Source: Aurantiochytrium sp. KH105
Lineage: Eukaryota > Sar > Bigyra > Thraustochytrida > Thraustochytriidae
Direction of reading: 5' to 3'
Assembly (NCBI GenBank): GCA_003116975.1
Contig: BGKB01000003.1
Coordinates: 124,001-188,000, forward strand
Length of the DNA: 64,000 nt
In this document: positions 21,039-34,613 of the stretch, one piece after another
Layout: every line of letters begins with the position of its first letter
Position numbering within the stretch: the stretch's first letter is position 1
The notes under the pieces: generated by a model
Seen by the model: the letters and a program-made list of their open reading frames with translations, nothing else
Database searches by the model: none
Told to the model about the DNA's origin: nothing
Position numbers and translations under genes: made by a program

Positions 21039-23048
21039 TCAGTTCCCAAATGTAGCGCCCGAGGCAACAACTGCGCCAAGGACGCATACTGCTGCAGAGG
21101 AAAGGGTCAGCGGGGAGACAATGGAGCCAGGGGAAAAGGGACTCGAGGGAAGGCCAAACCAATAGGAAAAAGAACCAGCATCACCACCGCTCGAGGACGG
21201 CTCGCTCGTGCGAGGCGAAAACGGGCACCGGCTTGCACGATGCACGGGAGCAGGCGTCTTTTCCGCGTCAACGAGGCCACATACTTGGTCCAGTTCGAGA
21301 AAGAGGCCAATGTTGAGCCGAAACGCCAGCACGGCCTCTTCAGCGATCGTGGCTGCCTCGTCCTCTGAGAGATCCATGGCGTCGAGTCGTGCACGATACA
21401 TGTTCTTGAAGTCTTTGGCGCTTGAGATCTCGGGAAAGACGTAAAACGCGGTGCCTTCGTCGCCCTCGAGTTGCAGCGACTTGCGAGCCATGCGACGCAA
21501 GGTCTGGCCTCCGCTCAAATCGCCCAGATAGCGCGTGTAGGCGTGTCCCACGAGTAGCAGAGGGTTGCTCTCAGCAAGCTGCTTGAGACGACCCATGTAG
21601 CAGCGCGAGGCGCGCGAAGGCACAGCGACGGCCACGTCCTCACGCCAGTTGGGGCCCATGAAAAAAGCAAGGTCCTCCTCGAGCCTTTCCTTTCGGTCGA
21701 GCACCTCAGGAAACCAGATTAAACGAAGGGCCTCGCAATGTCTGGACAAGACGGGATCGTCTTTGGAGCATGCTTGCGCAAACGCCTCTTCAAGCGCAGT
21801 GTAAACGTGGTACATGCGCACGATAAAGGCACAGTAGTCGCTTTTGCTGAGCTTGCACTTGATAAATGCGCGAATGAAGGCCACATTCTCGGCCTCGCGG
21901 TGGACCTGGCGTGTCTCCTCCTTGAGCAGCGAGGAAAGAGACATGTCTTGGCGGTGAGGCAGGGTTCGTGGCAGGCCGTGATGCAGACCTGCGGCAGCTG
22001 CGGGCGTGGTATCTACAAAAGGGCAGCGCTTTACAGCGGGGACCGGTGCGCCAGAAGGCGTCGACGAAGCGGGCTCTCGGGCTACGAGGCCACAGATACG
22101 ATCGAGCTCGAGAAAGAGCCCAATGTTGAGCCGGAACGCCAGCACGGCCTCTTGCGCGATCGCAGCGGCTTCAATCTCCGTCAGATTCATGGCGTCGAGT
22201 TGAGCGCGGTACATGTTCTTGAACTCCTTGGCGCTCGAGATCTCGGGAAAGACGTAGAACGCGGTGCCTTCGTCGCCCTCGAGTTGCAGCGACTTGCGAG
22301 CCATGCGACGCAAGGTCTGGCCTCCGCTCAAGTCGCCCAGATAGCGCGTGTAAGCGTGTCCCACGAGAAGCAGAGGATTGTTCTCAGCCAGCTGCTTGAG
22401 TCGGCCCACGTAGCAGCGCGAGGCGCGAGAGAGAGTCTGCACATTCGGGTCCTCGCGCCAGTTGTCGCCGAGGAGGAACGCAAGATCCTCCGCGAGGCGT
22501 TCCTTGCGGGCGAGAACTTTCGGGAACCAGATGGAGCGCAGCGCCTCTTGATGAACGGAAGATGCGGGCTCGTCCTCGGTGCATGCGTGGTCAAAGGCCT
22601 CTTCGAGCGCGCAGTAGACATGGTACATGCGCACGATAAAGGCGCAGTAGTCGTCTTTGCCAAGTTTGCACTTGATGAATGCGCGGATAAAGGCCACATT
22701 CTCGGCCTCGCGGTGGACCTGTCGCGTCTCCTCCTTGAGCAGCGTCGAGAGTTTCACCTCTGCGCCGCCGTGCACGCTCTCGACCGCGTGGCCCGCGTCT
22801 TTCTCCTCGGTCTCTTCCCCGGCGCTATCTCCGATCCGCGCGAGCACGGCGTCCAGCGCGGCGCGCGCGGTCACGGGGTCTCCCGCCTTGGCGTGCTCGT
22901 CCGCCGCCGCGCGCAGCAGCTTCTTGAGCGCGTGTCGCGGGCTGGCGTGCACCAGGGTGCCGTCCACGGGCGCCTTGGCGAACGCGGGGCACACGGCCGC
23001 GGCCTGCGCCTTGACCTGCGCCAGCGCGTCCTCCGGCGCCGCCTGCAT
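21039..23048 (-). CDS. HMOX: Double-domain heme oxygenase with Cys-Pro heme-regulatory motifs and C-terminal hydrophobic tail
   Basis: 669 codons from ATG 23048; the frame is open further upstream but that part reads as Arg/Ala low-complexity sequence. Family: oxidises heme to biliverdin, CO and iron. Two complete heme oxygenase domains lie in tandem, each with a proximal His in KEETRQVHREAEN (His112 and His383) and the distal-helix signature GHAYTRYLGDLSGGQ. They are nearly identical through long stretches, pointing to a recent internal duplication. Each domain is followed by a basic-Cys-Pro-Phe motif (RCPF; Cys342 and Cys608), like the heme-regulatory motifs of mammalian HO-2. A third Cys-Pro (Cys20) lies in the N-terminal extension. 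The last 30 residues end in a short hydrophobic run (AAVCVLGAVVASGATF) that may be a tail anchor in the ER. Both active sites look intact. Confidence 0.92.
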   Translation of the reverse strand: MQAAPEDALAQVKAQAAAVCPAFAKAPVDGTLVHASPRHALKKLLRAAADEHAKAGDPVTARAALDAVLARIGDSAGEETEEKDAGHAVESVHGGAEVKLSTLLKEETRQVHREAENVAFIRAFIKCKLGKDDYCAFIVRMYHVYCALEEAFDHACTEDEPASSVHQEALRSIWFPKVLARKERLAEDLAFLLGDNWREDPNVQTLSRASRCYVGRLKQLAENNPLLLVGHAYTRYLGDLSGGQTLRRMARKSLQLEGDEGTAFYVFPEISSAKEFKNMYRAQLDAMNLTEIEAAAIAQEAVLAFRLNIGLFLELDRICGLVAREPASSTPSGAPVPAVKRCPFVDTTPAAAAGLHHGLPRTLPHRQDMSLSSLLKEETRQVHREAENVAFIRAFIKCKLSKSDYCAFIVRMYHVYTALEEAFAQACSKDDPVLSRHCEALRLIWFPEVLDRKERLEEDLAFFMGPNWREDVAVAVPSRASRCYMGRLKQLAESNPLLLVGHAYTRYLGDLSGGQTLRRMARKSLQLEGDEGTAFYVFPEISSAKDFKNMYRARLDAMDLSEDEAATIAEEAVLAFRLNIGLFLELDQVCGLVDAEKTPAPVHRASRCPFSPRTSEPSSSGGDAGSFSYWFGLPSSPFSPGSIVSPLTLSSAAVCVLGAVVASGATFGN

Positions 23049-24553
23049 CTCCTCCTCCGCGCGCTCTCGCCGGCGGCCTCGGCGGCCGAGTCCTGCGCGT
23101 GCAGCTCCGAATCCAATCTGCACGAGCAGGTGCTCGACTCCGCGTCCTCCGCCGCCCTGACGCTTAGCCCGCGCGTGCGGCGCCCCGCGAGGCCCGCGCG
23201 CTCTCGCTGCGCTCCGCGCGCCCGCCGTGCAGGCTCGCGCGCTGGCGAGGGCTCGTCGGTTGGCCAGTTGCGGTTCTGCTGCTGCTGCTGCTCGCCCGTG
23301 CTCTCGTCTCGACGCCTTCTTGCGGCCGCGCTGTGCGCGCATTCGGTCTTTTGTGCTTGGCCTTTTCGCTGTCTTTTCTGGCTTTTCGTTTCTTTTTCTT
23401 CCGTTGTCTTTTCCTTTTTCCAGTTGTCTATTTGCATTCTTCACTTCCGTTTACGGTTGTGATGCAGTTAGGTCTTGCACTTTCACGCGCGGTACTGGAG
23501 CGTTCAAGCTTGACCCTCGCCGACGTCGCCCGCCCGCTTCTTCCTGCTGCATGACCACCCCCCCCCTCTTCCGTTCCACCCCCCCCTCCCACTGTGCACC
23601 CTCCCGCTCCGGAAACCCGGCCGCGAGGCCTCCCTCTCCGCCCCCTCCTCGCCCTCCCGCGCCGCGGACCCTCGCTCCGCCCTCGCGCGCGGACCTCGCG
23701 GGCTCGCGGCGCGGGCGCCCAGAATGGAATGGAATGCAAAGTGGAGCGAGGGAGGCGGTGCCGGCCTTGCGGCGCAGGACACCGCCGCGGCGCACGGGGA
23801 CGCTGGCGGTGGGTCCCTCACAGGTTTTTCACTGAGCTGCGGGACCGCAGCAATCCGTTGACGCGGGGCCGCGATTCCTCGTCCATCGAATTCGAGACAA
23901 CACGAGGAGCCGCGGCGAGGAGCGCGAGTCGCGCGCGCAGCGGAGACGGGGAATGCGCCGCGGTTGTGATCTTGGGCTCGGTCCCGGGCGCGTGCGGGCG
24001 CGTGCGAGGGAAGCGACGCACGCGCAGGGAGGGGGGGCGGAGAAAAGGGCGAAAGCTCCAGGAAGACGCGTGCGAGCACGTGCGAGGAGGCCTGCGCACG
24101 AGCCCGCCTCTGCAGGCTGCGGAGATAGTCTGATCTTGGCGGGAGGAGCTCGAAGGCGAGGGAGACAAGGGATGCACGTGCGAAGGTCAGGACGCACGCG
24201 CACGCACACGCACACACATAGAGACACACGCGTGATCGACCATGGCGAGGCTCGAGATGCCAGAAGACGGTCCGCCAGGCCCAAAAAGACCGTGCGTGCG
24301 ATGCCACCTTTCGTCGGCGGGCTGCAGGTAGGAAAAGAAAGAAAGCTCAGCAAACGACTGAGAAAAGAACTTTTAGGAGTCCACGATGACGCGACAGCCA
24401 AAGATCTTCTTGCCGTCGGCCAGGGGACGGCAGCGGCGGCAGCACGATCAACCTCAGACTGTGAACTATAACTTATACTAGTACGTTATCTCAATGGTTA
24501 GAAGGGAAGAAAGGAAGAAAGGGTTCTTCGCGGTGTGCTAGGAATCTTTTAGC
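23049..24553. other. Intergenic, GC-rich, no gene recognised
   Basis: Upstream of heme oxygenase and 3' of the CoA-transferase gene. Contains C-rich and CA/CG dinucleotide-rich tracts (about 23556-23590 and 24185-24235). Long ORFs on both strands are compositionally biased and were not called. Confidence 0.5.
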
Positions 24554-26119: not shown

Positions 26120-26870
26120 CGTCCTCGCGCGCCTCGTGCTCGCTCGCTCGCTCGCTCGCTCTTCAGGCAGTATCCAGGTCTGCCGCCGGTCGCGATTCCT
26201 CGCACGATCCCGCTCCGCGAAGACCGCGTGCCCGCCGGGCGCGCTTTGCGGGGACGCGACGCGCGGCGGCCGGGGCTCGTCTCTCGGCGCTGGGCCGCCG
26301 ACCGGGTATGCAACGCGTCCTCCGAGGTGAAGGTCGCGATCGCGAGGGCGGCGACGGCATTTGCACACGCGCACGCGAGACATCCGTCGTCTTCTCTCCA
26401 CCTTATTGCGCGCGATGCGAACCGGCGAGAGATTTTTCCCATTTGGGCCAGGCACAAAAGCGTCTTCGTGGCGGTGCCAAGAGCGACTCCTTTGGGCGGA
26501 CGCGGATGTCGCGAAGAGCGGCTCGAAGAGGAGTCGGCTCCGGGGGACGAGAGGAGGAAAGGTTTTGTGAGCTGGCGAGAGCGAGGGAAGAAGAAGGAGA
26601 GGAATAGCCCGGACGCTGGAGATGGGTGAATGGGAAGAGACGCCAAGATAGGACAGCCGCGGCGACCGATCCCTGGAGGGACGTACGAGCAATGAGGATT
26701 CCGTGGCAAAGATGGCACTCTCTAAAGCTGCAATCATCATAGTATACATGTTACATAATCAAAATGGAGGTGTATTCAGGCCGGCCGGCCGGCTGGCTGG
26801 CAGGTGGCAACTTCTTTCAGTGTCAAAAATAGCCGCCATAAAAGCGGTAATACGATCGCTGCGACCTGAT
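26120..26870. other. Upstream of CoA-transferase; GC-rich then AT-rich
   Basis: Begins with a (GCTC)n tract (about 26138-26162), probably within the promoter of the CoA-transferase gene. GGCCGGCCGGCTGGCTGGC repeats lie at about 26780-26802, just before the tandem duplication. No gene recognised. Confidence 0.5.
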
Positions 26871-28249
26871 TTACTGCGCCTTAGGCGTGAAGACCGGCAG
26901 GACATCGGCCGTTCCGAGACGTGCTCGCCCGCGAGGCCGTGGCTGCTGCGCGCGTGCGGATTTCGGGCTCATGTCGCTCGAGGACGAGCTCGATCGCACG
27001 AGCTTGTGCTGGGCTCCGCGCAAGTCGGTCATGGTTTTTCTTGGTCTTGCTTCTTTGCTTGCTCTTGCTTCTACGTTTGCTCTTGCTCTTGGTTTGGCTC
27101 TTTGGTTTTGCTTTGGGTGATCGTTTGGGGTTTGCTTCCGCCCGATACTTGGTCTTGCTTCCACAGCTCAAGCTACGTGGGCAGCTGAAGAAGCTGCCTG
27201 CTGTCGCGCCGTGTCCACTTGCAGTAGCCTGTAGATCGCATGCGACCGGTCAGGTTTCTCGTCTCGTCCAGAAAAATGCCTGACCTGCTCCCGCACTCGA
27301 AAGGAACAGCTTTCGAATTTTGTTCCATCCTTCCACAGCGCAAGCAACATGCTCCCCCCGGAAGAAGCAACCTGCTTCCGCGTCCCGTCCACTCGTGCAG
27401 AAAACTCCGCATGCGTCCTCCAGGCTAGCGGCCTCGCCGCCATTCGCTTCCATCGTTCTGCTCCTTGCCAGGCCTGGCTCCTGTGCCGACTAGCTTTCGG
27501 TTCAGATCCTTGCTTCCACAGCACAAGCTATCAGCTGTCCGCCAGACTGCAGAAGCACGAAGCAACGCTCTCGCGGCCACCGAGTAGCTGTCAATTCGTC
27601 AGAAAAGTCGCACGCCATCGCCAGCCAAGCAGGTCAGGCTTCTCGCCACCATCCATAGGATGCCTTGCTAGCATCGTTTTACCTTTAGCCTGGCCCCGCA
27701 CTCGCATTGAGCAGCTTTCAGCTGTGGGCGAGGTTTTGTCCGCGGCGCATTGGCCACGGAGAACGGACAGCTATGCAAGGAGGATCGCTTGGGGCCGGAG
27801 GCTTTCTGCAGCTCCATTACTCCGAACTGAGGTATGGGTATCACTAAGCGTGAGTCGTACAACGCGCGGAGGCCACCTATCTGGATTGGCTGGCGCGGAC
27901 AATCGCCGCTTAGCTACTCGTGACGGTTTTGGCTTAATTTACAGGACTCCGAAATCATCTGCTCTTGCTTCGCAGCTTCACAAAGACAGGGCTTCTAGCC
28001 GGCGCGATCGTCTCTAATGCACTGTATGCTCAGGGTCTTACCTTGCGTTGGTAACCGAAACGAGCTGCGTATCAGGCTGCATTGTGCTCAAAAGACAGCA
28101 AGCAAAGATCATCCAACTGAGAAGCCATGCAAAGAACGAAGGTCACAGAAACGAAACTTGGTTGTCAAAGAGTTTACATAGGTAAGAAAGTCAAAAACGA
28201 GAAGAGGATGCCAAGCGAAAAATCAGGCGTGTGTCTTGTCTCTCCAACG
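26823..28249 (+). repeat. Segmental tandem duplication, copy A (about 1.43 kb)
   Basis: First of three copies of a unit beginning TCAAAAATAGCCGCC. Next copies start at 28250 and 29730. Near-identity extends over almost the whole unit. Inside are three starts of a nested roughly 172-bp repeat marked by TTCCACAGCNCAAGC at 27159, 27331 and 27514. One 53-codon ORF lies at the left end on the minus strand. Confidence 0.9.
26871..27032 (-). CDS. Putative 53-residue basic microprotein, copy A
   Basis: ATG at 27032, TAA at 26871. Starts MTDLRGAQHKLVR, then a run of six Ser, then RPRGRARL, and ends VLPVFTPKAQ. Very basic, Ser/Arg-rich, no signal peptide or membrane segment. The same ORF recurs with unchanged protein sequence in copies B and C, whereas the DNA just upstream (AAGCAAGACCAAG-rich leader) differs by indels. 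Diverged relatives lie at 31.2 kb and 32.7 kb. I do not recognise the family. It could be a free small protein or the last exon of a larger gene; the shared ATG position near the start of similarity in all copies favours the former. Confidence 0.5.
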   Translation of the reverse strand: MTDLRGAQHKLVRSSSSSSDMSPKSARAQQPRPRGRARLGTADVLPVFTPKAQ

Positions 28250-28297
28250 TCAAAAATAGCCGCCGCAAAAGCGGTAATACGATCGCTGCGACCTGAT

Positions 28298-28459
28298 TTA
28301 CTGCGCCTTAGGCGTGAAGACCGGCAGGACATCGGCCGTTCCGAGACGTGCTCGCCCGCGAGGCCGTGGCTGCTGCGCGCGTGCGGATTTCGGGCTCATG
28401 TCGCTCGAGGACGAGCTCGATCGCACGAGCTTGTGCTGGGCTCCGCGCAAGTCGGTCAT
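28298..28459 (-). CDS. Putative 53-residue basic microprotein, copy B
   Basis: ATG at 28459, TAA at 28298. By eye the 162-base ORF is identical to copy A, including the HKLVR block, Ser run and VLPVF end. The leader immediately upstream has lost about 10 to 15 bases net and carries substitutions relative to copy A, so the ORF is better conserved than its flank. Family unknown. Confidence 0.5.
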   Translation of the reverse strand: MTDLRGAQHKLVRSSSSSSDMSPKSARAQQPRPRGRARLGTADVLPVFTPKAQ

Positions 28460-29348
28460 GGTTCTTCTTGGTCTTGCTTCTTTGTCTTGCTTCTTTGCTT
28501 GCTCTTGCTCTTGGTTTGGCTCTTGAGTTTTGCTTTGGTTGATCGTTTGGGGTTTGCTTCCGCCCGATGCCTGGTCTTGCTTCCACAGCTCAAGCTACGT
28601 GGGCAGCTGAAGAAGCTGCCTGCTGTCGCGCCGTGTCCACTTGCGATAGCCTGTAGATCGCATGCGACCGGTCAGGTTTCTCGTCTCGTCCAGAAGAGTG
28701 CCTGACCTGCTCCCGCACTCGAAAGGAGCAGCTTTCGAATTTTGTTCATCCTTCCACAGTACAAGCTACATGCTCCCCCCGGAGGAAGCAACCTGCTTCC
28801 GCGTCCCGTCCACTCGTGCAGAAAGCTCCGCATGCGTCGTCGAGGCTAGCGGCCCTGCAGGCCTGGCTCCTGTGCTGACTAGCTTTCGGTTCAGATCCTT
28901 GCTTCCACAGCACAAGCTATCAGCTGTCCGCCAGACTGCAGAAGCACGAAGCAACGCTCTCGCGGCCACCGAGTAGCTGTCAATTCGTCAGAAAAGTCGC
29001 ACGCCATCGCCAGCCAAGCAGGTCAGGCTTCTCGCCACCATCCATAGGATGCCTTGCTAGCATCGTTTTACCTTTAGCCTGGCCCCGCACTCGCATTGAG
29101 CAGCTTTCAGCTGTGGGCGAGGTTTTGTCCGCGGCGCATTGGCCACGGAGAACGGACAGCTATGCAAGGAGGATCGCTTGGGGCCGGAGGCTTTCTGCAG
29201 CTCCATTACTCCGAACTGAGGTATGGGTATCACTAGGCGTGAGTCGTACAACGCGCGGAGGCCACCTATCTGGATTGGCTGCGGACAATCGCCGCTTAGC
29301 TGCTCGTGACGGTATTGGCTTTATCTACAGGACTCCGAAATCATCTGC

Positions 29349-29444
29349 TCTTGCTTCGCCTTGCTTCGCCTAGCTTCGCCTAGCTTCGCCTAGCTTCGCC
29401 TTGCTTCGCCTTGCTTCGCTTTGCTTCGCCTTGCTTCGCCTTGC
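29349..29444 (+). repeat. 10-bp minisatellite (CTTGCTTCGC-like)
   Basis: About nine to ten units of CTTGCTTCGC with variants CTAGCTTCGC and TTTGCTTCGC. Copy A has only one unit at the equivalent place, so this array expanded after the segmental duplication. Confidence 0.9.
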
Positions 29445-29729
29445 TCAGCTAGCTCTGCAGCTTTACAAAGACAAGGTCTCTAACCGGCGCGTACGTCTGG
29501 AATGCACTACAGGGTCTTACCTTGCGTTAGTAACCGAAGCGAGCTACGTACCAGGCTGCATTGTGCTCAAAAGACAGCAATCAAAGGACATCCAATTGAG
29601 AAGCCATGCAAAGAACGAAGGTTAAAAAAACGAGAACTTGGTTGTCAAAGAGTTTACATGAATAAGAAAGTCAAAAACGAGAAGAGGATGCCAAGCGAAA
29701 AGTCAGGCTTGTGGCTTGTCTCTCCAATG

Positions 29730-30362
29730 TCAAAAATAGCCGCCATAAAAGCGGTAATACGATCGCTGCGACCTGATTTACTGCGCCTTAGGCGTGAAGA
29801 CCGGCAGGACGTCAGCGGTTCCGAGACGTGCTCGCCCGCGAGGCCGTGGCTGCTGCGCGCGTGCGGATTTCGGGCTCATGTCGCTCGAGGACGAGCTCGA
29901 TCGCACGAGCTTGTGCTGGGCTCCGCGCAAGTCGGTCATGGTTCTTCTTGGTCTTGCTTCTTTGCTTGGTCTTGCTTCTACGTTTGCTCTTGCTCTTGGT
30001 TTGGCTTTTTGGTTTTGCTGCTCTTGCTCTTGGTTTGGCTCTTGAGTTTTGCTTTGGGTGATCATTTGGGTGTTTGCTTCCGCCCGATCCCTGGTCTTGC
30101 TTCCACAGCTCAAGCTACGTGGGCAGCTGAAGAAGCTGCCTGCTGTCGCGCCGTGTCCACTTGCAGTAGCCTGTAGATCGCATGCGTCCGGTCAGGTTTC
30201 TCGTCTCGTCCAGAAGAATGCCTGACCTGCTCCCGCACTCGAAAGGAGCAGCTTTCGAATTTTGTTCCATCCTTCCACAGCGCAAGCTGCATGCTCCCCC
30301 CGGAAGAAGCAATCTGCTTTCGCGTCCCGTCCATTCGTGCGAAAAGATTCGCATGCGTCCCG
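29730..30362 (+). repeat. Segmental tandem duplication, copy C (partial, about 0.63 kb)
   Basis: Third copy, matching A and B until about 30362, after which sequence diverges (a weaker nested repeat continues at 30477). Nested TTCCACAG starts at 30101 and 30273. Confidence 0.88.
29778..29939 (-). CDS. Putative 53-residue basic microprotein, copy C
   Basis: ATG at 29939, TAA at 29778. Same predicted protein as copies A and B. The only nucleotide differences seen are three third-position changes in consecutive codons (ACG to ACC, GCC to GCT, GAT to GAC), all synonymous, in the T-A-D preceding VLPV. The leader upstream is longer, with an extra Leu/Ala-type CTCTTGGTTTGG block. This pattern suggests selection on the protein. 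Confidence 0.55.
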   Translation of the reverse strand: MTDLRGAQHKLVRSSSSSSDMSPKSARAQQPRPRGRARLGTADVLPVFTPKAQ

Positions 30363-31174
30363 GCTGCTATCTTGTCTGCTTCAAGAAGAATTCTTCTCGT
30401 TTACTTGTGGGCCCCAAGACCGGGTCTCCCATTCATCCGAGGTGGCTCTTGGCTTGTGCTTTCCCTTTCCACAGCAAAAGCTACTTGCTCTCCCTCATGA
30501 AGCCATCTGCTTTTGCATCGTGTCCATTTTGAGAGAAAAATCGCATGCATCCAGTCAGGTTTCCTGTCTGCATGCAAGTTGCTTGGCTTTCATCGTTTTA
30601 GATCCCAGGATGGACTCTGCTGCGGGGGACGGGAGATTGCTTGCAACGTTTGAGCAACGAAATAATAGCCTGATCCACTCCTTTGGGCCGGATAATTCGT
30701 CAAGGCCGAGCGCGGAATTCGCCGAGGCCGGGCTTAACCTTGAACCTGATAAAGCACAAGCCACCCGAACGCGAAAGCCAGTTACCTCCCGACCATTTTG
30801 TTTACTCACATTGTTTGCCCTGTACGGATGTCGTCCACTGAAGTTCACCGGTTTTGTCTGTTATGTGCGCACAAGACTCTCTCGCACCACGGCAGTAAGT
30901 GAGGAGCCGAAGCGCGAACAGTTCGAATCGCACGATAGCATGAAGCTTGATGCTTCGCACCGTCCCTTGATGGAAAAAAATGGACACAAAAATCAAGACA
31001 GTAAGCAACAGCAGGTAAGCAGGGAAGCAAGCAAGAAGCTGCTGCCAACAAGGTATTGCTTCACGCAGTCGCTTTAAGAGCGGCCCTCTCCTGCACTTTA
31101 GGGCCGTGGGCCGAGTGTAAATGGTTTCTATTTTACATACTTGAAAGTAATAAATAAATGTGGCTTGCTGTGCC
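30363..31174. other. Diverged repeat tail and intergenic DNA
   Basis: Begins with a degraded nested repeat (TTCCACAGCAAAAGCTAC at 30477, then GCATGCATCCAGTCAGGTTT near 30544). Beyond about 30620 I see no repeat and no convincing gene; ORFs on both strands lack recognisable motifs. Confidence 0.5.
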
Positions 31175-31354
31175 TCAGCCCTTGGCCTCAGCAGGCGACG
31201 GCTTGTATACGGGTAGAACGCCCGTCGTCTCCATTCGTGGTCGTGCTTGTCTCCGCGTCTGCTGAGGTTGCTTCTGGTCTTCCGGGCTACTAGCGCGTAC
31301 AAGCTTGTGCGTTGCAGGAGTAGACTCACGCTTGTATATTGCTGATGCTCCCAT
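31175..31354 (-). CDS. Putative 59-residue microprotein, diverged member
   Basis: ATG at 31354 in an AGCAAGATGG context, TGA at 31177-31175. Begins MGASAIYKRESTPATHKLVR, has a Gln/Arg-rich middle (QQTRRQARPRMETTG) and ends VLPVYKPSPAEAKG. It shares HKLVR, the basic middle and VLPV(Y/F) with the tandem copies, and KM-x-AS...(E)-x-TP-x-T plus ETT-x-VLPVY with the plus-strand ORF at 32718. The frame is open upstream through a Lys/Ser-rich stretch. About 76 bp upstream lies an array of GCTAGC palindromes that could be its promoter. Family not recognised. Confidence 0.5.
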   Translation of the reverse strand: MGASAIYKRESTPATHKLVRASSPEDQKQPQQTRRQARPRMETTGVLPVYKPSPAEAKG

Positions 31355-31429
31355 CTTGCTTAAGCTGCTGCGGCTGCTTCGTCTTGGGGTAATTCTATGG
31401 ATCTGAAGTTTTGGTTTTGCTTTGGCCTG

Positions 31430-31533
31430 AAAGCTAGCTAGCTTTCACGTCAATACAAGCCAGCTTTGACGTCAGTGCTAGCCAGCTTTCCTGTAATTGC
31501 TAGTTAGCTTTTTCATCAAAGCTAGGTAGCTTT
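31430..31533. promoter_or_regulatory. Array of five GCTAGC-type palindromes
   Basis: Units: AAAGCTAGCTAGCTTT (31430, a perfect palindrome), AAGCCAGCTTT (31457), GCTAGCCAGCTTT (31477), GCTAGTTAGCTTT (31499), AGCTAGGTAGCTTT (31520). Spacing is about 20-27 bp, roughly two helical turns. A CRE-like TGACGTCA lies at 31467-31474. Looks like a cluster of protein-binding sites upstream of the small ORF at 31175-31354; inferred, not proven. Confidence 0.5.
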
Positions 31534-32717
31534 GCCCTTTTGAGCTCAGAAGTAAAGTAATCCCCGCAGCCTCCCCTCATGCTGGAGAAGTCAAGTTTCC
31601 TCCGGAGCAGGATCCATTTTCGGAAAAAGGTCCTGGTCGCGGTAGTCGCCCTCGCCACGACGCAATGTCAACGGAAGTCAAACTTCCACAGCTAGCTATA
31701 TTTACCATTGTGCCTGCTCCCGCGCTCGTACGTTCGGCCCTGCTCGGCTTATACCGCGACTTGACTCCTCGCCCAGAGTTACTCGTTCACGCCTTTACGC
31801 ATGCTTTTGATCGTTGACACCGGATATGTGACAAGGGCGTTATGGAGAAATGAAACCGATCCAGGGGAAGCTTGTATAAGAGAGACACGCCCGACCAACA
31901 CACGCCAGGCGGTCGACCTTCTTCCGTTGATTAACGCGCGGGGCAGCAGGAGAACCACTAAACCGACGCGAGCGTCATTCATCCATTCGGCCGCCGCCGG
32001 CCGCTCTGTACAGTGCCTCGACCAGGCTTGCGGGACCTGCGCGGGAAAGCAAGACGGTCGCTGAACACCTGCCTGAGGGGAGCTCCTTGCTTTGCTTGCA
32101 TCTGCGTTGGGAATTGCCAAAGCTAAGCTACCCGACGCGAAAGCAGCGCCCTGCCCCAAGTAAAAGCACCTGCACCAGCGCTAGCATTAGCACCAGCACC
32201 CGCAAGAGAACAAAGAAGCGGCCGGGGTGCTGGCGCGAGCGAGTTCTTTCCCGCGCCAATTCCACCAAGCAAATTGAATGCAGCTAGCTTCTGCAGGTCG
32301 ACCTCTTGTCCGTTGACTGTGGTGCGGCGGCGTCCCCAATAAGCTCGCTCGAGGTCCTGGTCGTGCCAGCTTACGCGCGAGTGTCTCTCTCTTTCCATCA
32401 TTGAGCAGCAGTCAAGTGGCAGTGAAACGAGTGCGTCATGGCGAGTAGTAGCTCGAGCATACCGCAGCCCGAAGTCCATTTGGGCGACCTGTAGCTTGTC
32501 CAGAGCAGTGCTATACTCAGAAAACTCTTGCTGAACGCACGAGCGGGAGAAGCAGATTGCTTTGCTGTTGGGCATCATCTGGAGCTAGCAGCTTTCCGCA
32601 TACCAAGCTGGAGGGACGGCTAGAGCACGCAGGCGAAAGCAAACCTCAAACATCAAGCAAGAAAAGCAACCCCAAGCAAAAGCAACCCCAAGCAAGCAGC
32701 AATCCTACCAGCTAAAG
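31534..32717. other. Intergenic between oppositely oriented small ORFs
   Basis: Separates the minus-strand ORF at 31.2 kb from the plus-strand ORF at 32.7 kb and probably holds both promoters. More GCTAGC sites occur near 32283 and 32594. A 151-codon minus ORF at 32123-32578 has an ATG and a Gly/Ala-rich end but no recognisable domain; not called. From about 32637 the sequence turns AAGCAAA/CCCCAAGC-rich, matching the leaders of the tandem-copy ORFs. Confidence 0.5.
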
Positions 32718-32882
32718 ATGCCGGCAAGCAACGAGACTACTCCTTCCACGAAAAGACTTGTTCGCCGCAGCGAGTCTACATCTTCAGACAAGCAAGGGCA
32801 AGACCGTCAGCCCCGGCCTGGTGCCCGAGCCCGCCTCGAGACCACAGAGGTTCTCCCCGTCTACCCAGCGTCGCCCCAATGA
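32718..32882 (+). CDS. Putative 54-residue microprotein, plus-strand diverged member
   Basis: ATG at 32718, TGA at 32880-32882. Begins MPASNETTPSTKRLVR, has a Ser then Gln/Arg-rich middle (DKQGQDRQPRPGARARLETT) and ends EVLPVYPASPQ. It aligns over its length with the 31.2 kb ORF and, more weakly, with the three tandem copies, although it is on the opposite strand. The AAGCAAACC and AAGCAACCCC repeats upstream resemble the leaders of those copies. Family not recognised; basic, no signal or membrane segment. Confidence 0.5.
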   Translation: MPASNETTPSTKRLVRRSESTSSDKQGQDRQPRPGARARLETTEVLPVYPASPQ

Positions 32883-34001
32883 CGTAGCAAGGCAAGCAAC
32901 CCTGATGTGGATGCATGTAACTTATTGCCTTGCCCACAAGCTAGGTCGGTCCCACTGTAAACTATTCAAAGCTATGTACATAACGCACATGAACCAAGAC
33001 ACTCCTCTTGACACACGCCACTTCCTTCGCTCTGATCTTGCGTTATCTCTCCATGGGCTTCACTTTGGCTTCGAACCTCCCGTGGCGCCTTCTTGTGACC
33101 CCTTTTCGCTGCTTCATGATCTTCCTGACCATATGCGTACGCTTGCTTCAAAGTCGCACACAACCACCTTTCCTTCCCTTCTCTCTATTGAAAATGCATG
33201 TCGAAGCGGGCCATACCTGCGTGCTTCTCACATTCGGAGTAACGACGTCCTTGGGTTTGGGTGTGGACTGACACAAGCGACGCGCTTGTTGCTTCCGCAC
33301 ACTTTTTGCAAATGATCGATACTTGTGGAATGGCTTCAACGTGTCAGCGGTTGCACAGGAGATAGCAAAGACGCCGTGCTCGCTTTGTCGTGCACCTTTT
33401 GCAGACTATTATCGGACTGCTTCCAGAAGACAATTTGTAACTTCTCCATGTAGTCTTCAGTGCAGTTTCGGATTTCCGAAGGCCTATTGCGCGTTCTATT
33501 TTGCGCTCGCCGCATGACTGCGATCGCTAGTTGCTTCAGCAAAATCATTTTACCTTGCCCAAAGGAGCATGAAAGAAATTGTTGAGCCTTTTGTGTCCCG
33601 TCCCTCAGTCAGTCATCCAGCCCACCAGTCAACCAGCTAGCTTGCTTGCTGGCCTAGCTAGCTGGCCGCACCTGACCGACCATCATCTTTCATGGCAGGC
33701 AGGCAGGCAAGCAAGCAAGCTCCGAGCTTTTTAATTTCGAGGACTTCGGCTTTAGTCAGGCTTGATCGGGCGAGCGAGGGAAAAGGTCAATCCGAGTCAA
33801 TCCATGAACAACGCTTCTCGCGATCGTAGCGCGACCTTTATTGAGAACTTCTGCTGCAGCTTGGGCGTGAGAAGGGCGACGAAAGGGCGTCTGCCTCTGA
33901 AGAACCAAATCATTGCCGGTCAAGCTCGAGGCTGACGGCAACGCAGCTCTTGACGTGTGCGCGGCAAGTCGTGTTGTAAAGCAGCAGCATTAGCAGTCAA
34001 G
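32883..34001. other. Intergenic, no gene recognised
   Basis: Contains CAGCTAGC/GCTAGCTGG repeats at about 33632-33673 and GGCAGGCAAGCAAGC repeats at about 33697-33720. Short ORFs only. Confidence 0.5.
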
Positions 34002-34613
34002 ATGGACAACCTCAAGCGCGTGCTGGCCGAGCTGCTGACAGACTTTGACACCCTGCGGACTGCCCGCCGGGAGTACCAGCTAATGCTCGATGATGTCATT
34101 CACACAAGCAATGCAGAGTACGTGACAGAGGCGGTGTCTGGCTTCTTCCCGGACAATACCCAACCCGCGTATCGGTACCTTCGTGCAGCGGTCCGCCTCG
34201 TCAAGGCAGCCGAGGCAGCGGATCCGGCTGCGCGTCTCGGCATCCTCGAAGAAGCTCTCGACGACGCAGAAAGTGCTCGTTGGGATGGCGTTGATCAAAA
34301 TACCAAGCAAATCCACGACGACGTACCAACGTTGCGCCATGATGCCAACGCACGGAGTGCCGATGAGTACAATCACAAGTTGGCCGAGCTCTACAATCAG
34401 GCTGGAGACCTTTATAACCGCGCCTCGAATGCCAGGGAGCAGGCAGAGACCAACATGTTTGCGGCAATTGCTCAGATCGCCACGCTCTGCAGCTTTCCGG
34501 ACGCGGCGCCTTTTCAGCTCAGCAAGGACGAGCGCAATGCGGCGGTGCGCAAGATCGAGGAGATGATTAAGTTTGCTAGGCGTGTCACACAGACCAAGGT
34601 TCCCCGCAACTGA
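34002..34613 (+). CDS. Hypothetical helical protein
   Basis: 203 codons from an ATG in a GTCAAGATGG context; the frame extends 15 codons upstream without an ATG of better context. Predominantly helical, with a first helix MDNLKRVLAELLTDFDTLR and a later long amphipathic helix (DEYNHKLAELYNQAGDLYNR, then REQAETNMFAAIAQIATL). It ends in a basic segment (EEMIKFARRVTQTKVPRN). No catalytic motif, signal peptide or membrane segment. The KLAELYNQAGDLYNRA stretch is reminiscent of a TPR-like helix pair, but this is not enough to name a family. Single exon. Confidence 0.7.
   Translation: MDNLKRVLAELLTDFDTLRTARREYQLMLDDVIHTSNAEYVTEAVSGFFPDNTQPAYRYLRAAVRLVKAAEAADPAARLGILEEALDDAESARWDGVDQNTKQIHDDVPTLRHDANARSADEYNHKLAELYNQAGDLYNRASNAREQAETNMFAAIAQIATLCSFPDAAPFQLSKDERNAAVRKIEEMIKFARRVTQTKVPRN

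Follow-up and report, generated by a model that had tools for sequence, protein, structure and literature searches.

Conserved small open reading frames with a common basic-hydrophobic signature in the thraustochytrid Aurantiochytrium sp. KH105

Five related open reading frames in a 64-kb window

The window analyzed here is a stretch of 64,000 nucleotides (contig C3, positions 124001-188000) of the Aurantiochytrium sp. KH105 assembly, a eukaryotic assembly of 76,034,492 bases in 367 contigs, and contains a cluster of small open reading frames (ORFs) that belong to one family. A sequence-only reading of the window had reported five such ORFs between positions 26871 and 32882, and all five were found there. 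Three minus-strand ORFs encode the same 53-residue protein (MTDLRG...), designated F1, in copies a (26871-27032, stop codon included), b (28298-28459), and c (29778-29939). F2 is a 59-residue ORF (MGASAIYK...) on the minus strand (31175-31354), and F3 a 54-residue ORF (MPASNETT...) on the plus strand (32718-32882). The core motif of the family occupies positions 26889-26927 (RARLGTADVLPVF), 28316-28354, and 29796-29834 in F1 copies a, b, and c, respectively, and positions 31205-31243 in F2 (RPRMETTGVLPVY), all on the minus strand, and positions 32826-32864 of the plus strand in F3 (RARLETTEVLPVY). A six-frame search of the entire 76-Mb assembly with F3 as the query matched F2 above chance (E = 9.2e-6), and a slightly looser form of the motif, applied to the 64-kb window, retrieved only the five known ORFs.

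The F1 genes are carried by a three-unit tandem array (26728-30360, minus strand), with one gene per unit of ~1.4 to 1.5 kb, and unit spacings of 1427 and 1480 bp. Repeat families D1 and D2 occur three times each in the array, and D4 occurs twice. The ORF DNA is identical in copies a and b and differs at three sites in copy c, all at third codon positions. The array is a recent tandem triplication, and the three identical F1 proteins are therefore not independent observations. Thus, the five ORFs on which the sequence-only reading based its argument do exist, but the argument from numbers is weaker than it looked, since three of the five stem from this single event. Copy c had been counted as a third 53-residue ORF, which holds from MTDLRG onward, the part common to all three copies; mechanically, an in-frame upstream ATG that is absent from the other two window copies extends this ORF to 95 residues, up to position 30065. 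The motif ends in VLPVF in all three copies on C3 (window 26871-29939) and in VLPIF in all three copies of the corresponding array on contig C19 (L009, 5605-8771). This uniformity of Val or Ile within each contig at one motif position suggests homogenization inside each array. A 10-bp minisatellite, (CTTGCTTCGC)n, with 9.6 copies, lies between two F1 units (29350-29445), and the matching place of the neighboring unit (~27964-27973) contains one copy of the word CTTGCTTCGC.

Family members on three contig pairs

Members were collected by single-protein searches and by a haplotype scan. The search counts are lower bounds, and further, more diverged members may exist. The family comprises at least eight types and 10 genes per presumed haplotype, distributed over three contig pairs. 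Contig C3 carries F1 (three copies), F2, and F3; F4 is located at C141:98106-98273, with C44 as the partner contig; and F5 (71 residues), F6 (56 residues), F7 (62 residues), and F8 (53 residues) are clustered at C242:147281-151891, with C48 as the partner contig. The relatives on C141 and C44 were detected with the 53-residue F1 as the query at E values of 7.2e-10 and 1.8e-9, respectively. Each member has a partner on the other contig of its pair (C3/C19, C141/C44, and C242/C48), in conserved order. Because the paired contigs are collinear and diverge by 7 to 10%, we infer that they represent the two haplotypes of a diploid assembly. F8 was first noticed in the haplotype scan because its frame was free of indels and was assigned to the family on the basis of its motif, which was recognized only afterwards.

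Weak genome matches at C141:21051, C26:147046, C18:154781, C73:269414, and C9:463016, as well as on C41, C42, and C23, were rejected, since they were devoid of the motif; this check covered the genome matches other than C16, C146, C175 (partners), C87, C46, C77, and C3:330476. At C93:100423-100536 (E = 0.057), the segment RSRPGSIDLLPFF fits a looser pattern and not the strict one, and it was set aside without proof. This segment is part of a 355-residue open frame, which continues for 162 residues past it, is overlapped by a 483-residue open frame, and has no match on any partner contig. A looser motif scan of 16 loci (83,712 bases) gave the known members and the C93 segment only, and ~9 kb of additional flanking sequence on C242 contained no further member.

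A signature located close to the stop codon

The pattern R-[AP]-R-[LM]-x-[T/S]-x-x-[VLF]-L-P-[VIL]-[YF], derived from the same members on which it is scored, is present in all eight types and, when the first contig of each pair is considered, in all 10 genes. The signature ends 5 to 15 residues ahead of the stop in ORFs that span 53 to 71 residues from ATG to stop. Relative to the Thr/Ser position, which is occupied by Ser in F8 and by Thr in the other seven types, Arg residues at -5 and -3 are present in 8 of 8 types, as are the Leu and Pro of the hydrophobic half, and residue +2 is Asp or Glu in six of them. The sequence-only reading had defined the family by ordered HKLVR-like, Arg-rich, and VLPV(Y/F) blocks. 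The invariant element, present in all types, is RxRxx[T/S]..PhiLPPhi[Y/F]. The HKLVR and Arg-rich blocks are not a family signature, since HKLVR occurs in only five of the eight types, variants counted: this second basic block reads HKLVR in F1, F2, and F4, KRLVR in F3, and HRLVR in F5 and is absent or unclear in F6, F7, and F8.

Outside the tandem overlap, DNA similarity between types is short and corresponds to the coding motif (66 bp between F1 and F4; 65 bp between F6 and F7), with two additional short similar stretches (38 to 43 bp) upstream of F1 and F4. Upstream regions revealed no common promoter element, the top 8-mers, ranked without statistics, being low-complexity AAGCAAAC-like words. 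The grand average of hydropathy (GRAVY) ranges from -0.68 to -1.26 and the isoelectric point from 8.4 to 11.9 (F8 left out of both ranges). Judging from this composition, the proteins are probably disordered, and most are basic. Inspection by eye revealed no signal peptide or hydrophobic segment.

Purifying selection on the family ORFs

Four partner stretches were aligned, and every ORF of at least 45 residues was scored. All 10 family ORFs were intact and free of indels, with 59 synonymous and 29 nonsynonymous differences and a ratio of nonsynonymous to synonymous differences per site (pN/pS) of 0.17 (P about 1e-16 for pN < pS; Fisher test on sites, with sites treated as independent). Counting the F1 triplet once gave 8 of 8 ORFs without an indel and a pN/pS of 0.19 (P about 2e-12). 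In the window, comparison to C19 showed 7 synonymous and 2 nonsynonymous differences for F1 copy a, 5 and 1 for copy b, 6 and 2 for copy c, 7 and 6 for F2, and 5 and 2 for F3. Among 60 control ORFs, 6 were free of indels, 9 had an intact start and frame, and pN/pS was 0.85 (P = 0.017). Some of the controls overlap family ORFs in a different frame; six rows at or beyond window position 33900 were excluded because these are, overlap, or adjoin a real-looking 203-residue ORF starting at position 34002. One frameshifted control had a pN/pS of 0.18. Alignment gaps were present upstream (within 150 bp) of 7 of the 10 family genes, downstream of all 10, and inside none of the ORFs. The motif differs between partner contigs at 2 of 104 residues (both Val to Ile), versus 22 of 360 residues outside it (F1 counted once).

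The absence of indels and the low pN/pS compared to that of the controls indicate that the family ORFs very probably encode proteins and evolve under purifying selection. Since selection maintains their frame, they are very probably translated. Thus, the proposal of an unnamed microprotein family was borne out by conserved ATG and stop codons, indel-free frames, purifying selection, and paralogues on other contigs.

Relatives in databases and literature

In agreement with the earlier statement that no family with this pattern was known, nothing significant was found in Pfam, NCBIfam, or PDB. None of the eight types exceeded the Pfam/NCBIfam cut-off, the best match being DUF2239 for one type (E = 0.16; 12.2 bits versus a cut-off of 25). 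A profile built from six members (F7 and F8 left out) had no match at E ≤ 1 among 5.8 billion proteins. With F7 added (F8 left out), a single protein was retrieved, FCC1311_017872 of Hondaea fermentalgiana (E = 1.2e-15), which was the sole match at E ≤ 10. The last 62 residues of this hypothetical protein (83 residues) match F7, with one difference from the C242 sequence; unlike F7, the gene model has 21 additional N-terminal residues. A homologue elsewhere with the same stop position, which the sequence-only reading had suggested looking for, therefore exists, in a very close relative and for a type located outside the window. Since H. fermentalgiana is itself a thraustochytrid closely related to the present organism, the match supports a thraustochytrid origin of the window and is not to be taken as evidence of deep age. 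F7, used alone as the query, revealed no relatives in viral and prokaryotic contigs. The protein collection contains other labyrinthulomycete proteins, such as the Aplanochytrium SCOT. Short genes are frequently absent from such collections, so that the lack of further homologues is weak evidence. Literature searches retrieved no papers on small ORFs or microproteins of thraustochytrids or on orphan genes of Labyrinthulomycetes. Among the papers listed on lineage-specific thraustochytrid genes, on FCC1311 and the Hondaea fermentalgiana genome, and on Aurantiochytrium phosphoproteomics (the last represented by an unrelated review), the titles and opening lines of abstracts contain no description of the family. 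The family is real and, as far as these searches reach (at the DNA level, among eukaryotes, the present genome), so far undescribed.

Genomic neighborhood and other features of the window

The window cluster is flanked by SCOT and by the 203-residue ORF, which has no Pfam match, followed by a methyltransferase. A protein kinase and a PP2C phosphatase are present on one side of the C242 cluster and a PPR protein on the other, and F4 is flanked by a metallophosphatase and a DNA polymerase. Gene neighborhood was rejected as a clue, since the eight neighbors scanned included none common to the three places. The kinase (C242:143681-145795) and the phosphatase (about C242:141299-142345) next to F5 to F8 are regarded as a coincidence because no kinase was present among the neighbors scanned at the other two places. 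The 203-residue ORF (34002-34613, plus strand), indel-free with a pN/pS of 0.11, is a real-looking additional unnamed gene bearing the marks of purifying selection. A 767-residue ORF (21039-23342, minus strand) contains an internal direct duplication with a spacing of 813 bp (21271-21570 and 22084-22383, 88% identical; 21636-21935 and 22449-22748, 80% identical) and thus encodes an internally duplicated protein.

A putative phospho-switch

We tentatively favor, at somewhat less than even confidence, the interpretation that the family proteins are disordered phospho-switch microproteins that would be phosphorylated by AGC kinases and thereafter recognized by 14-3-3 or a comparable reader. An AGC kinase of the Akt/SGK/S6K class would phosphorylate the Thr or Ser of RxRxx[T/S], and a phospho-reader, for which 14-3-3 is the most likely candidate, would then bind the phosphorylated site. 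The second basic block of five types, [HK][KR]LVR, is followed by Ser or acidic residues and may constitute a second basophilic site, in which case a 14-3-3 dimer could clamp both sites. The PhiLPPhi[Y/F] segment might provide a docking surface for a regulated partner that phosphorylation would hide or release.

This proposal is favored because of the RxRxxS/T consensus, the Thr/Ser acceptor, the fit to PRAS40 (see below), and the presence of 14-3-3 and AGC kinase genes. All eight types match the RxRxx[S/T] substrate consensus of Akt/SGK/S6K, and two reports give RxRxxS/T as the Akt/SGK consensus (PMC3671793, PMC6824681). The Thr-to-Ser exchange (seven Thr and one Ser) is of the kind tolerated by a phosphosite. 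Each presumed haplotype has 14-3-3 genes at four places, and the AGC kinase C-terminal domain is encoded at three pairs of places; the one AGC kinase examined is closest in PDB to SGK1 (E = 5.6e-107) and S6K (E = 1.5e-103). Pairs of phosphorylated residues dock 14-3-3 dimers (PMC3914767).

Several observations weigh against a phospho-switch. RxRxx[S/T] is a common short pattern, and a basic docking or nucleic acid motif would likewise preserve both arginines. Three of the eight types (F6, F7, and F8) have no second basic block or an unclear one, which excludes divalent 14-3-3 binding as a general property of the family. Pro at +2, frequent in classic 14-3-3 sites, is present only in F5. Selection is weakest for F8 alone (pN/pS of 0.48; 4 synonymous and 5 nonsynonymous differences) and F2 alone (0.28; five amino acid changes), and a few controls are likewise indel-free, with ratios of 0.35 to 1.5, single ratios being noisy. 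Finally, the coding evidence comes from the presumed haplotypes of one assembly and from one close relative and does not amount to deep conservation.

A phosphosite alone also does not explain why the hydrophobic half of the motif is as constant as the basic half. For this reason, the main rival is a docking peptide devoid of any switch, which we consider doubtful: RxR and PhiLPPhi[Y/F] would bind the groove of a MAP kinase (in the manner of a D motif), a cyclin, or a similar protein; the microproteins would act as competitors or adaptors, and the role of the Thr would lie in contact or capping. With its basic pair ahead of hydrophobic residues, the motif does resemble MAP kinase docking peptides, but by eye the docking patterns do not fit all members, and the Thr-to-Ser exchange in F8 is better explained by phosphorylation.

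It is unlikely that the proteins are basic microproteins whose Arg-rich stretch serves to bind RNA, DNA, or the ribosome. Their isoelectric points and a weak, nonsignificant profile match to ribosomal protein bL34 (E = 0.082) point in that direction, whereas the number and position of Arg residues vary apart from R(-5) and R(-3), and the hydrophobic PhiLPPhi[Y/F] residues are among the most conserved, which is unusual for pure nucleic acid binders.

The ORFs might also be the last exons of longer spliced proteins, as could be suspected from the 21 additional upstream residues (MGSSLSAAQLPVHNLGRIRSI) of the Hondaea F7 model. In the matching frame of the present genome, the first eight of these residues are not found immediately ahead of the others, so that the model seems to be spliced. 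The model is, however, apparently a prediction, and the partner contigs disagree at three of the 13 residues that precede F7 (QLPVHNLGRIRSI and YLPVHKPGRIRSI). Conservation starts at the ATG, as seen from the distribution of gaps reported above, and in-frame stops are present 18 to 387 nucleotides upstream in 9 of the 10 genes per haplotype (F8 not among them), making the last-exon explanation improbable. Chance ORFs within non-coding repeats are extremely improbable, since, even though F1 lies within a 1.4-kb tandem repeat with many other ORFs of similar size, most of these others are frameshifted and as a set show near-neutral drift between partner contigs, which holds for none of the family ORFs, and paralogues on other contigs have little flanking DNA in common.

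Extended to the whole family, the phospho-switch proposal would describe a lineage-restricted thraustochytrid signaling system of short disordered microproteins, tandem amplified, with at least eight distinct types, each combining an SGK/Akt-type site with a new PhiLPPhi[Y/F] docking element for one common partner, and invisible to standard annotation. In this complete form, the scenario is possible and rather speculative. The sequences suggest that small signaling proteins may be missed by routine gene finding: the present multigene family is well supported, and the searched protein collection yielded just one of its members. Comparison of partner contigs within one assembly can thus tell real small genes from chance ORFs. 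The family also offers one conserved, directly testable Thr/Ser residue. If the phospho-switch proposal is correct, thraustochytrids, an industrial source of omega-3 oils, possess small regulators that are connected to growth-control kinases.

Comparison with known systems

MAP kinase docking (D) motifs consist of basic residues followed by hydrophobic ones, Thr/Ser and LP not being known as part of the consensus, and inspection by eye indicates that not all family members match their spacing and residues. The N-terminal Akt site of the FOXO proteins is of the RPRxxT type and is read by 14-3-3, as envisioned here for the family; FOXO proteins are transcription factors with a DNA-binding domain, whereas searches with the family proteins revealed no known domain. 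PRAS40 (AKT1S1) is a disordered protein with a role in 14-3-3 binding and mTORC1 signaling. It is far longer than the family proteins, and its Akt site is not followed by LP-[VIL]-[YF]. The resemblance is confined to nine residues. Human PRAS40 residues 238 to 256 (peptide DLPRPRLNTSDFQKLKRKY) include RPRLNTSDF with phospho-Thr246 (PMC3671793), and PRAS40 is described as Akt selective and as no substrate of SGK (PMC6824681). RPRLNTSDF fits the first nine positions of the family motif and, more specifically, the form R-[AP]-R-[LM]-x-[T/S]-x-[D/E]-Phi displayed by most members.

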